Below, one piece after another: positions 15,880-19,589 of a stretch of DNA of 33,253 nt. This stretch comes from an uncultured Pelagibacteraceae bacterium (lineage in GTDB: Bacteria; Pseudomonadota; Alphaproteobacteria; Pelagibacterales; Pelagibacteraceae), in contig CACHJL010000014.1 in NCBI GenBank assembly GCA_902580135.1, positions 1 to 33,253 on the forward strand, in the 5' to 3' direction. The stretch's first letter is position 1; every line of letters begins with the position of its first letter. The notes under the pieces were generated by a model. It was not told the DNA's origin. It saw nothing but the letters and a program-made list of their open reading frames with translations, and searched no databases. Made by a program: the position numbers and the translations under genes.

Positions 15880-16581
15880 ATGGCCTTAGGAGAAAAAAAT
15901 CAAAGTGACATCATAAATTCTGAGATAAATTTAAATTATAACAAGTATATATTTACAAATAAGCCAATAAATAGATTTAAAACTAAACCAGCAGTAGAAG
16001 ATGTATCATCAAAATTAGATGAATTAAGGAATGATATTGAAAAAATAGAAAACTGTGAATTGAAGAAAAATGCTTCAAGAATAGTTTTTAGTGATGGAAA
16101 CAATAGAAGCAAAGTGATGATAGTTGGTGAAGGTCCTGGTCAAAAAGAAGATGAGGCTGGAAAACCTTTTGTTGGTGATGCCGGTATACTTTTAAACAAA
16201 ATGTTAAAATCAATTAATATTGAAAGACAAAATGTTTATATTACAAATGTAGTAAATTATAGACCACCAAATAATAGAAAACCTGAACCTATCGAAATAA
16301 CAAAATATTCAAATTTTTTAAGAAAACACATTTCAATTATTGATCCAAAGATATTAATATTAATGGGAAGCACAGCAATGGAATCTCTATTTGGTTCAAA
16401 TATAAAAATTACAAAAGAAAGAGGATCATGGAAAGACATAATTATTAATAACAAAACCTACCTTTGCATGATTACTTTTCATCCTGCTTATCTATTAAGG
16501 CAACCTGAAAATAAAAAATACTCTTGGACAGATTTAAAAGAAATAAGAAAAAAAATTGATCAATTAAATATAATATTATAA
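15880..16581 (+). CDS. uracil-DNA glycosylase, family 4-like (apparently without Fe-S cluster)
   Basis: Base-excision repair enzyme that removes uracil from DNA. Over 233 residues: a poorly conserved extension (about 1-50), motif A GEGPGQKEDE (83-92), GKPFVGDAG, ITNVVNYRPPNNRKP (121-135) and motif B HPAYLLR (201-207), all family 4/5 hallmarks. In Fe-S family 4 enzymes four Cys bind the cluster: CxxC near the N-terminus, Cys in the CRPP motif and a Cys about 16 residues later. Here only Cys59 remains of the first pair (Lys62 replaces the second), and Tyr127 and Tyr143 stand at the other two positions. Only two Cys (59, 196) exist in the whole protein. The start is divergent from the TPR gene. 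Confidence 0.87.
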   Translation: MALGEKNQSDIINSEINLNYNKYIFTNKPINRFKTKPAVEDVSSKLDELRNDIEKIENCELKKNASRIVFSDGNNRSKVMIVGEGPGQKEDEAGKPFVGDAGILLNKMLKSINIERQNVYITNVVNYRPPNNRKPEPIEITKYSNFLRKHISIIDPKILILMGSTAMESLFGSNIKITKERGSWKDIIINNKTYLCMITFHPAYLLRQPENKKYSWTDLKEIRKKIDQLNIIL

Positions 16582-16589
16582 ATAATTAA

Positions 16590-16724
16590 ATGATTGAATT
16601 GCATAAAAAATATATAAATTGGTGGAAAGAAAAGCTTAATCTTTCAGATTACGGAATATTATGGATATCTTTTATCAAGGGATTAATAATCGGCTTGCTA
16701 ATTTATCATTTCTTCATAATTTAA
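16590..16724 (+). CDS. 44-residue single-pass membrane peptide, unknown function
   Basis: ATG 16590 opens a 44-codon frame ending in TAA 16722-16724. It reads MIELHKKYINWWKEKLNLSD, then a hydrophobic segment (about 22-44, YGILWISFIKGLIIGLLIY and on to the end). The pattern is a basic, Trp-rich cytoplasmic start plus one membrane helix reaching the C-terminus. It fills the gap between udg and rnhB almost exactly: eight bases after the former's stop and four before the latter's start, in a window where gaps are otherwise short. I do not recognise a family. Supporting translation is inference from context and composition, not proof. Confidence 0.65.
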   Translation: MIELHKKYINWWKEKLNLSDYGILWISFIKGLIIGLLIYHFFII

Positions 16725-16728
16725 TTTA

Positions 16729-17304
16729 ATGAAAAGAATCATTGCAGGAGTAGACGAAGTAGGGAGAGGAAGTTTAATTGGTCCAGTTTATGCTGCGGCA
16801 GTTATTCTTAACAGTAATATAAATAAAAAAGAACTTAAAGATTCAAAAAAGTTAAATAAAATAAAAAGAGAAGTTTTAGCAAAATATATAAAAAAAAATT
16901 CTACATGGGCTATTGGATCTGCTTCTTTAAAAGAAATTGAACAAATTAACATTTTAAATGCAAGTTTGCTTGCAATGAAAAGAGCTATTAAGAAATTAAA
17001 AACAAAACCTACATTAGTATTAATTGATGGAAACAAAATTCCTTTAATGGAAAATTATAAACTTAAAAGTATAATTAAAGGAGATCAAAAAATTTCAGAA
17101 ATTTCTGCTGCCTCAATAATAGCAAAAGTTTTTAGGGATCGTCTGGTTACAAATCTATCAAAAAAATTTAAAAAATATAGTTGGTCAAAAAATGTGGGCT
17201 ATGGAACCAAAGATCATATAGTTGCGATCAAAAAATACGGGGTAACTAAATTTCATAGAAAAACCTTTAAACCTATACACAATATATTGAGTCTTAAAAA
17301 ATAA
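16729..17304 (+). CDS. rnhB: ribonuclease HII
   Basis: Cuts the RNA strand of RNA-DNA hybrids and initiates removal of single ribonucleotides from DNA. The 191-residue protein has the DEDD active site: GVDEVGRGSLIGPV with Asp9 and Glu10, LIDGNK with Asp100, and an Asp in the AKVFRDR segment (about 131). SIIKGDQKISEISAASIIAKV and the C-terminal GYGTKDH and HRKTFKPI blocks are typical. Length is normal (about 190-210). It lies four bases after the small membrane peptide and upstream of the ccrM promoter. Confidence 0.96.
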   Translation: MKRIIAGVDEVGRGSLIGPVYAAAVILNSNINKKELKDSKKLNKIKREVLAKYIKKNSTWAIGSASLKEIEQINILNASLLAMKRAIKKLKTKPTLVLIDGNKIPLMENYKLKSIIKGDQKISEISAASIIAKVFRDRLVTNLSKKFKKYSWSKNVGYGTKDHIVAIKKYGVTKFHRKTFKPIHNILSLKK

Positions 17305-17340
17305 GAGCAACAAGAAGATTCAAATTAATTCAATCACAGG

Positions 17341-17369
17341 TTGACTGGGACTCTGACCTAGAGTCTAAT
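17341..17369 (+). promoter_or_regulatory. ccrM promoter with GANTC inverted repeat in the spacer
   Basis: TTGACT (17341-17346) and TCTAAT (17364-17369) are -35 and -10 boxes, each one mismatch from consensus, with an optimal 17-base spacer. The spacer and the first two bases of the -10 hold a perfect inverted repeat, GACTCT-GACCT-AGAGTC (17349-17365), whose arms contain GACTC (17349-17353) and GAGTC (17361-17365), both GANTC sites recognised by CcrM-type enzymes. A start near 17376 would leave a leader of about seven bases. Two more GANTC sites lie at 17289-17293 and 17317-17321. The layout suggests control of ccrM by its own methylation. The repeat could instead act as a weak terminator for rnhB, since T-rich DNA follows. 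Confidence 0.6.
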
Positions 17370-17382
17370 TGTTTTTTATAAA

Positions 17383-18456
17383 ATGATTAACTCAAAACTT
17401 ACAAACAAAATTATCAACGGTGATAGTCTCAAAGAATTAAAAAAAATTCCAACCGAAAGTTTTGATTTAATTTTTGCAGACCCGCCCTACAATTTACAAT
17501 TAAAAAAATTATTAAATAGACCTGATTCATCTAAAGTGGATGCAGTTAACGATGAATGGGATAAGTTTGAAAATTTTAATAGTTATGATGAGTTTACATT
17601 AAAATGGCTTAATGAATGTAAAAGAATTTTAAAAAAAGATGGAACTATTTGGGTAATAGGTAGTTATCATAATATATTTAGAGTTGGTAGTAAAATACAG
17701 GATCTTGGATTTTGGATATTAAATGATGTTATTTGGAACAAAAATAATCCAATGCCAAATTTTAGAGGAACAAGATTTACAAATGCTCATGAAACAATAA
17801 TTTGGGCTGCTAAAAGTGAAAAGTCAAAATATACTTTCAATTACCAATCACTTAAATGCTTAAATGATGATCTTCAAATGCGATCTACATGGAATTTGCC
17901 AATTTGTAATGGAAATGAAAGACTAAAAAATAATGGAAAAAAAGTTCATTCAACACAAAAACCTGAATCTCTGCTTCATAGAATTATTCTAGCATCTACA
18001 AACAAAAAAGATTTAGTATTAGATCCATTTTTAGGCTCAGGAACTACAGCTGTAGTATCAAAAAAACTAGGCAGAAATTATCTTGGAATAGAAAAGGAAA
18101 AAAAATACTTTGAAGCGGCAAGCAAAAGAATTCAAAATGCAAAAGTTATAAATGATGAGTTTTTAGACACTTTGCAAAATAACAAAACAAAACCAAGAAT
18201 ACCTTTTGGATCACTGGTTGAAATGGGAGTAATAAAACCTGGTACCGAAATTTATGATCAAAAGAAAAAAGTAAATGCAAAAATCATGGTTGATGGAAGT
18301 ATAAAACATCAAGAATATGAAGGGTCGATTCACCAAATTGCAGCTAAAATTATAGGTACTGAGAGTTGCAATGGCTGGACATATTGGCATTACCAGTCTG
18401 GAAATTTATTAAAGCCAATTGATGAATTAAGACAAAGATTAAGGTCTTCTAATTAA
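17383..18456 (+). CDS. ccrM: cell-cycle DNA adenine methyltransferase (GANTC-specific, CcrM family)
   Basis: Solitary beta-class N6-adenine methyltransferase; CcrM enzymes methylate GANTC and couple methylation state to the cell cycle in alphaproteobacteria. The 357 residues match Caulobacter CcrM (358). The catalytic DPPY (33-36, in FADPPYN) comes before the SAM-binding LDPFLGSGTTA (213-223), as in beta-class enzymes. The C-terminal extension (about 270-357; IPFGSLVEMGVIKPG, NGWTYWHY) is the CcrM-specific domain needed for DNA recognition. No restriction endonuclease is adjacent. It ends tail-to-tail with the monooxygenase, overlapping by four bases. Confidence 0.95.
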   Translation: MINSKLTNKIINGDSLKELKKIPTESFDLIFADPPYNLQLKKLLNRPDSSKVDAVNDEWDKFENFNSYDEFTLKWLNECKRILKKDGTIWVIGSYHNIFRVGSKIQDLGFWILNDVIWNKNNPMPNFRGTRFTNAHETIIWAAKSEKSKYTFNYQSLKCLNDDLQMRSTWNLPICNGNERLKNNGKKVHSTQKPESLLHRIILASTNKKDLVLDPFLGSGTTAVVSKKLGRNYLGIEKEKKYFEAASKRIQNAKVINDEFLDTLQNNKTKPRIPFGSLVEMGVIKPGTEIYDQKKKVNAKIMVDGSIKHQEYEGSIHQIAAKIIGTESCNGWTYWHYQSGNLLKPIDELRQRLRSSN

Positions 18457-19589
18457 TTCCTATAAATTTTACCAAGATAACTTTCTAAAAATTTTTCATT
18501 TTTTGTTAGATATTTTAGACAAATATTTCTCATAAAGATAGATAAAGGATTTTTAAGATGAAAAGCAAAATGATTTATTTTTGATCTCCTATTTATTGAG
18601 TTAATTTTATTTATTCGCTCCTTATAAAATTGATCATTGTTATTTTTTATATTTTCAAATAATTCATATGAAGTTTCTATAGATTGTGAGGCTCCTTGTG
18701 CAAATGAAGGTGGAAAAGCAAATAAAGCATCCCCAGCAAAGAATATATTTTTTTTATTTATAGTTTCTAATTTTTCACTCACAAAAATTGGAAAAGCTTT
18801 AATGTTTTCTAAATTACTTCCTAAATCTAAAATTGAATTTTGATTAATGATACCAATAAGTGATTGTAAAAAATCACTATTTTCAAACAATTTTCCATCT
18901 AAAAGTTGTTCTTTTGATAAATTTTTCCTAATTATAGAAATGAAATTATATTCTTTATTCTGATTAACTGGATAAATTACAAAGTGAAAATTGGAACCCA
19001 TAAATATAGAGATATCAGAATTATCATAGTGTTTTATATTCCCTCTTAATGCAACAGATTTAAAAAACTTTGGAGCTACAATTTTATTAGAAATAATAGA
19101 CTTTGATTTTGAGAAAACGCCATCAGAGACAATTATATAATCAAAATTTTCATTTTCATTATTGGAGAAAAGAACATTCAATTTTTCTCCATTATATTCA
19201 ACTTTTTTTAACTCAATATTATGATTTATTTTATTATCTGGTACCGCATCTAACAAAAAACTTAATAAAGTTGATCTCTTTAAAGTTGTGTAATAGTTAG
19301 CTTCATCATTAAACTTTCTGATATCAATATCACAAATTTTATTATTATTTCTAGCATCTATAAAATTTACTTTTTTTGGATATGATAGATCGTGCGCAGA
19401 TAAATTCTTAAAACCTATTTTATTTAGAAGTTTAATACTATTTACTGAAAGTTGAATTCCATAACCTTCTTCTAAATTAAATTTTGAACGTTTTTCATAA
19501 ATTTTATATTCAAAATCTGGATATTTTTCTAATAAATTCGCAAGGTATAAACCTGAAATACCCCCTCCAATGATAGCTATCTTTTTCAT
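18453..19589 (-). CDS. FAD-dependent aromatic-type monooxygenase, substrate unknown
   Basis: Class A flavoprotein monooxygenase fold (PF01494/UbiH-like), 378 residues. The N-terminal Rossmann motif IIGGGISGLYLANLLE (about 5-20) binds FAD ADP; YGIQLSVNSIKLLNKIG follows; the second FAD signature FFAGDALFAFPPSFAQGASQSIE binds the ribityl/phosphate part. These enzymes hydroxylate aromatic or quinone-type substrates with NAD(P)H and O2; ubiquinone hydroxylases are one possibility, but nothing in the sequence fixes the substrate. It overlaps the mutY stop by one base (TAATG), so both are probably expressed together, though a functional link to DNA repair is not evident. Confidence 0.8.
   Translation of the reverse strand: MKKIAIIGGGISGLYLANLLEKYPDFEYKIYEKRSKFNLEEGYGIQLSVNSIKLLNKIGFKNLSAHDLSYPKKVNFIDARNNNKICDIDIRKFNDEANYYTTLKRSTLLSFLLDAVPDNKINHNIELKKVEYNGEKLNVLFSNNENENFDYIIVSDGVFSKSKSIISNKIVAPKFFKSVALRGNIKHYDNSDISIFMGSNFHFVIYPVNQNKEYNFISIIRKNLSKEQLLDGKLFENSDFLQSLIGIINQNSILDLGSNLENIKAFPIFVSEKLETINKKNIFFAGDALFAFPPSFAQGASQSIETSYELFENIKNNNDQFYKERINKINSINRRSKINHFAFHLKNPLSIFMRNICLKYLTKNEKFLESYLGKIYRN

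Follow-up and report, generated by a model that had tools for sequence, protein, structure and literature searches.

The rnhB-ccrM locus

The window (the whole stretch of DNA analysed, 33,253 bp) carries the ribonuclease HII gene rnhB and, after a gap of 78 bp on the same strand, a gene for a GANTC adenine methyltransferase (Table 1). The best solved structure for the product of the latter is Caulobacter CcrMI (6pbd, E 2.8e-136, residues 9-355 aligned), and this nearly full-length match, together with the N6_N4_Mtase and C-terminal RAMA domains, gives it the make-up of the CcrM type. The identification as ccrM in a first-pass annotation of this DNA is borne out by PF01555, PF18755 and the 6pbd match, and on sequence grounds the product is CcrM, a predicted GANTC methylase. 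Among the best 80 named matches listed, the nearest relatives of the gene are from Pelagibacteraceae, and on this ground the window is assigned to SAR11.

Table 1. Genes and predicted promoter elements at the rnhB-ccrM locus (window positions)
Feature	Position	Strand	Basis or remark
rnhB (ribonuclease HII)	16729..17304	+	ORF; PF01351, E 7.6e-42; same-strand upstream neighbour of ccrM
GAGTC in rnhB coding end	17289..17293	+	Direct reading; excluded from promoter
Third GANTC site, 24 bp 5' of TTGAC	17317..17321	+	GANTC at that offset in 70/107 SAR11 loci
TTCAATC block beside -35	17329..17335	+	6/7 columns invariant, remaining one with 3 changes (107 loci)
Predicted -35, TTGACT	17341..17346	+	Direct reading; alignment anchor, invariance partly by construction
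Distal GANTC (GACTC), predicted -27 to -23	17349..17353	+	Kept in 99/107 loci, N variable
Proximal GANTC (GAGTC), predicted -15 to -11, overlaps -10	17361..17365	+	Intact in 106/107, 0-1 changes per column
Predicted -10, TCTAAT, C at -11	17364..17369	+	C-11 and T-7 in 107/107 loci
Predicted transcription start, leader ~7 nt	17376	+	Inferred from -10 position
ccrM (GANTC adenine methyltransferase)	17383..18456	+	PF01555, E 1.3e-69; RAMA PF18755, E 1.1e-16

Direct reading confirmed the promoter elements that had been placed before ccrM, namely TTGACT (17341-17346), a 17-bp spacer and TCTAAT (17364-17369), as well as the inverted repeat GACTCT-GACCT-AGAGTC at 17349-17365 and GANTC sites at 17289, 17317, 17349 and 17361. 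The sites at 17317, 17349 and 17361 lie inside the gap, and the fourth, at 17289, which had been grouped with them, sits in the last codons of rnhB. The claim that four GANTC sites in 77 bases exceed chance stands, with its figures of 28% G+C and 0.2 sites expected corrected to 26.5% and 0.17. The window as a whole is depleted in GANTC (57 sites against 82.4 from dinucleotide shuffles), the four-site stretch is unique among 33,176 sliding 77-bp stretches, and the rate-based expectation for such a stretch is 0.13 sites, giving a Poisson P of ~1e-5 for four.

The predicted core has the -35 box, the 17-bp spacer and the T at -7 of a sigma70 promoter, and lacks the A at -11. This A is the most critical base of the -10 box of sigma70 promoters. 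In all 107 SAR11 loci compared (see below) position -11 is instead C, the last base of the proximal GANTC. Since A at -11 is incompatible with GANTC, the methylation site has apparently been kept at the cost of promoter consensus, and in SAR11 generally retention of the site appears, from the alignment, to have prevailed over that consensus. The earlier description of a good sigma70-type promoter was therefore overstated; a consensus scan, which requires A at -11, does not list the window promoter, with its C. In 105 of the 107 SAR11 loci, 12-13 nt separate the predicted -10 and the first ATG (17370-17382 in the window), and a nearly leaderless ccrM mRNA is thus predicted.

Conservation of the promoter core in SAR11

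Of the 61 genomes of the order, 51 gave a ccrM match, among them that of the window; the matches in G020 and G029 are partial; the SAR11 loci from named records were the best 80 listed. From the resulting loci (L001-L110) we compared 107 after removing L030, which belongs to another family, and two exact duplicates; near-duplicates between the two SAR11 collections may remain among the 107. The loci were anchored on TTGAC with all other columns free, and the distal site was counted at either of two offsets from TTGAC, 8 or 9. Because TTGAC served as the anchor, its invariance and that of the preceding G are partly by construction.

The 29-nt promoter core aligns without a gap in all 107 loci. 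L079, with AAGTC, is the one locus in which the proximal GAGTC is broken, and G is the middle base of all 106 intact sites. A distal GANTC is found in 99 loci, 65 of them with offset 8 and 34 with offset 9; its middle base is C in 47, A in 44, T in 5 and G in 3; the distal site is thus absent in eight loci and the proximal one in a single locus. On the ccrM tree the columns of the proximal site and of TAAT each require 0-1 parsimony changes, compared with a mean of 21.2 and a minimum of 12 for 42 four-fold degenerate sites, used as a neutral yardstick. The length of the promoter core and its site columns are therefore conserved far beyond neutral DNA, and the GANTC pair, to judge from the pattern of substitution, is kept as methylation sites and not as a fixed word.

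The arms of the inverted repeat are complementary over five bases in 47 of the 107 loci and over six bases in 19. Pairing is limited in this way since the middle base of the proximal site is always G and that of the distal site varies. An alignment across SAR11 had been proposed as the test of the first-pass annotation; the GANTC pair and the core length come through it, and the inverted repeat, with six-base arms in 19/107, does not. We therefore reject the repeat as a functional unit, and its perfect form in the window is a local accident. The further suggestion, that GANTC sites in the promoter spacer fit regulation in cis by methylation state, agrees with the conservation of the site pair.

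Three other features of these loci were noted. TTCAATC is conserved to about the same degree as the proximal site across the 107 loci; it may be a decayed third site TTGATTCAA of the class promoters (see below) or the site of an unknown factor. Locus L131 (genome G143), from another genus of the same family, keeps TTGAC, and its spacer contains TTTAGTC without a GANTC, an apparent loss of both sites. Locus L033 (NYYU01000038.1), one of the 110 from which the 107 were drawn, is titled Parcubacteria group bacterium and has a SAR11-like ccrM locus with a protein 91% identical; it is probably a misbinned contig.

The layout in the order and the class

In another family of the order the proximal site lies at offset 19 from TTGAC in 19 of 19 loci and both sites are present in 17, many of these cores being identical and six distinct; the -10 box there reads CATATT or CATTAT. 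For the class we drew 144 alphaproteobacterial genomes evenly, the window's own included, of which 121 gave a ccrM match. The 100 upstreams analysed (hits with E up to 4e-110) comprise 29 loci and 71 of 72 further stretches, after exclusion of one stretch whose contig ended after 48 bp and of the G110 gene, which has an inner stop.

These 100 upstreams hold 103 TTGAC words, for which 1.16 GANTC sites are expected per offset. The observed number is 43 at offset 19, and 8, 22, 14 and 11 at offsets 7 to 10; a third site peaks at offset -15, with 18. All 43 sites at offset 19 are followed by both A-11 and T-7. The pattern TTGAC-N2-5-GANTC-N5-8-GANTC occurs in 31 of the 100 upstreams; 100 shuffles gave 0.01 on average and never more than 1. 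TTGAC with a proximal site at offsets 18-21 was found in 47 upstreams, from 39 of 84 families, and both sites in 39 upstreams, from 32 families. A like layout thus precedes ccrM in many alphaproteobacterial families, with a nearly rigid proximal site and a distal one that floats. The SAR11 proximal site is shifted by one base relative to the class form, and the window's genome for this reason has no match to the two-site pattern with A-11.

The layout of TTGAC and proximal GANTC was not found in the other 53 of the 100 upstreams, and 11 of these have no GANTC within the 320 bp examined. Base composition differs among the upstreams: G+C is at least 0.45 in 44 of the 47 bearers, 44 of the 75 upstreams of such composition bear the layout, and one of the 15 with G+C below 0.40 does so. 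CtrA-like sites (TTAA-N6/7-TTAA, TTAACCAT) were considered as replacements for the layout in non-bearers, with 9/53 against 3/47 (P 0.13), a weak difference that is not significant.

Specificity for ccrM

The two-site box with A-11 and T-7 gave 32 hits in 30 of the 144 genomes, 29 of them directly before ccrM, with 2 hits for the reversed control. One of the non-ccrM matches sits in G169; the other two are in G185, where one box precedes an ftsK-like ORF by ~20 nt and another lies ~260 bp upstream of a ribonucleotide reductase ORF (L273:948-976, L272:930-958; ORFs by Pfam). A looser two-site pattern in the 61 genomes of the order gave 50 hits, 43 at ccrM, against 5 in the reversed control. The two-site form is therefore nearly specific to ccrM. 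The pattern with only the proximal site is not, giving 117 hits in 81 of the 144 genomes (hand count), of which 43 are at ccrM, and 34 in the reversed control.

All 28 matches to TTGAC-N15-GANTCTAAT in the order, one in each of 28 of the 61 genomes, adjoin ccrM (reversed control 10), and we therefore reject the idea that identical boxes form a regulon in SAR11. By itself, GANTCTAAT shows no enrichment in the window's genome, with 34 occurrences and 40 for the reversed control. A class-type two-site box also occurs at G051:C1:115992-116015, in a genome of the order where no ccrM was found, and is possibly foreign or contaminant DNA.

Alternative explanations and the possible role of GcrA

The inverted repeat followed by a run of T could be the hairpin of a rho-independent terminator of rnhB, and a scan for terminator-like sites does return 17348-17366 as the sole one in 16500-18700, where 0.7 are expected. 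Pairing of the arms is, however, restricted to the 47 of 107 SAR11 loci given above, and the T-rich tail varies whereas the spacing from -35 to -10 is fixed, so that we regard a terminator as very improbable and reject the intrinsic type. The conserved block might alternatively be the site of another regulator in whose motif GANTC is incidental. The invariance of TTCAATC in SAR11 lends itself to this explanation, and an unknown factor may act as well, but GA and TC are retained at the distal GANTC although its middle base varies and it occurs at two offsets, and the GANTC pair recurs across the class at fixed offsets from TTGAC; incidental GANTC sites are hence distinctly improbable. A different mechanism would have CcrM itself as the putative occupant of un- or hemimethylated GANTC in the core, blocking RNA polymerase until the sites are methylated. 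Protein on either site would exclude polymerase, the near-specificity of the two-site form for ccrM suits such a role, and GcrA would not be required. CcrM occupancy would nevertheless repress in the hemimethylated state, the opposite of the behaviour reported for ctrA P1 (PMC4287350), and we consider it improbable.

The remaining alternative turns on GcrA, for which 54 of the 61 genomes of the order have a PF07750 match over the family cut-off. The window's genome is one of them; its gcrA (G000:C16:6252-6686, E 2.3e-34) is an ORF of 165 aa whose product aligns with Caulobacter GcrA (7ye1) in its DNA-binding and sigma-binding parts; no GANTC was seen by eye in the 313 bp upstream of it. The window promoter resembles GcrA-type promoters in having GANTC between -35 and -10 (17349, and 17361 entering the -10) in a genome with gcrA. 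GcrA with sigma70 could recognise methylated GANTC and activate a weak ccrM promoter, so that the methylated state would sustain itself by positive feedback. A weak -10 with C at -11 suits an activator-dependent promoter, and GcrA is reported to stimulate open complexes at methylated promoters (PMC7403470). The motif YGAKTCK, reported for Caulobacter GcrA though with no such preference in Brevundimonas (PMC7987155), is somewhat commoner at class distal sites (17/39) than at other GANTC (74/278), with 12/39 at proximal sites; neither window site fits it, GGACTCT and AGAGTCT failing on both strands. Across the class survey GcrA is not associated with the layout: 35 of the 47 bearers have it, as do 45 of the 53 non-bearers (Fisher P 0.22), and the PF07750 model also rings in the Sulfolobus control, so that some of these presences could be false. 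In a relaxed search of 10 of the 12 bearers without GcrA none rose over the cut-off of 26.9; the highest score, 23.2 bits, came from a C-terminal match in G061. Bearers without GcrA and the absence of co-occurrence make GcrA unlikely as the only reader of the layout, unless divergent copies were missed, and co-occurrence does not support it as a necessary one. Positive feedback through GcrA is accordingly a possible but doubtful explanation.

A proposed self-sensing ccrM promoter

We read the layout as an ancient self-sensing promoter, in view of the conserved site pair in SAR11, its recurrence before ccrM in the class and the near-specificity of the two-site form. In the account that we favour, with confidence that is roughly even, the ccrM promoter fires when hemimethylated and is shut by full methylation through CcrM, which would constitute negative feedback. 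A passing fork would leave both promoter GANTC sites hemimethylated; RNA polymerase, alone or with GcrA, would then start a nearly leaderless ccrM mRNA, and CcrM would re-methylate the chromosome together with its own promoter. Addition of m6A to the second strand might lower open-complex formation or let GcrA coat the promoter, and transcription would fall. On the template strand the added m6A would face -12 in SAR11, and in the class outside SAR11 it would face -13. In the window organism the predicted core would be a working promoter that is methylated and responds to methylation, and we infer both the negative sign of the control and the identity of the reader.

GANTC methylation has been measured in Pelagibacter, where 3477 of 3482 sites were fully methylated in one cultured strain (PMC9516812), and it is also reported for Pelagibacter genomes in PMC12570018. 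At the 99.86% full methylation measured in culture, the self-sensing promoter would spend most of its time switched off, which counts against the favoured reading; nor does the available part of PMC9516812 list ccrM with the unmethylated sites. The 53 class upstreams in which the layout was not found, locus L131, the SAR11 loci that lack one of the sites and the low specificity of the proximal-only pattern also weigh against it. Hemimethylation is described as the activating state for Caulobacter ctrA P1, and the cell-cycle promoters of that organism that carry GANTC between -10 and -35 are active during a defined window (PMC4287350). GcrA covers ctrA P1 from -35 to -10 once this promoter is fully methylated, and may thereby hinder polymerase (PMC3667746). 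Methylation can also activate Caulobacter ftsZ, with GANTC between -35 and -10, and mipZ (PMC3708114), and promoters activated in the manner of ftsZ would give the opposite sign, again an argument against negative feedback.

A bolder version, which we put forward tentatively and think somewhat unlikely, is that the ccrM promoter is an ancestral alphaproteobacterial self-sensing device in which polymerase alone would read the two core CcrM sites without GcrA or CtrA, counting replication events to set the methylase level, and that SAR11 keeps its bare form. CtrA drives ccrM in Caulobacter and rhizobia, the main known cases of control over methylase level and timing (PMC2877005, PMC4433202), and Pelagibacter is reported to be without ctrA (PMC2877005). 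Occurrence of the layout from SAR11 to dozens of other families points to an older form of control, with the CcrM target within the core promoter of its own gene. If true, this control would amount to a minimal replication-coupled feedback loop, testable with one promoter, one enzyme and one polymerase, and would hint at a way of timing methylation in ocean bacteria for which CtrA is reported to be absent.

Relation to known systems

In Caulobacter the GANTC sites of ccrM reportedly lie in the leader and CtrA is the activator. The SAR11 gene is of the same family as that of Caulobacter crescentus, where methylation state is likewise thought to act on ccrM itself (PMC3973325), but the SAR11 sites are placed in the -35/-10 core, in a group for which, as noted, ctrA is reported to be missing (PMC2877005). 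A closer likeness is to the GcrA/CcrM sigma70 promoters ctrA P1, ftsZ, mipZ and podJ P2, which have GANTC between or near -35, -10 or the start (PMC4287350, PMC3708114), and GcrA is present in the window's genome. The SAR11 ccrM promoter differs from these in its pair of sites, of which the proximal overlaps the -10 and keeps a nearly fixed distance, and in that the two-site box is nearly ccrM-specific and has bearers without GcrA over the cut-off.

No report of the two-site layout in the ccrM core was found in the open literature searched, of which coverage was partial. The nearest report gives GANTC counts per 500-bp promoter and, in the part available, draws no conclusion on control (PMC2877005); term searches turned up nothing about the ccrM promoter in PMC5172544 and only an unrelated word in PMC11514494. 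That methylation controls ccrM and other promoters is already known, as are methylases that influence themselves. A two-site core promoter, nearly ccrM-specific and spread across a bacterial class, does not appear in the literature searched.

In the promoter of the IS10 transposase a Dam site overlaps the -10 and ties its activity to the hemimethylated phase that follows replication. That case involves Dam and GATC and a transposon gene, and there is no self-control of a methylase in it. The methylases of the CfrBI and LlaDII restriction-modification systems reportedly influence their own expression; the CcrM of the window differs from them in being without a known restriction partner, and its promoter layout recurs across a bacterial class.
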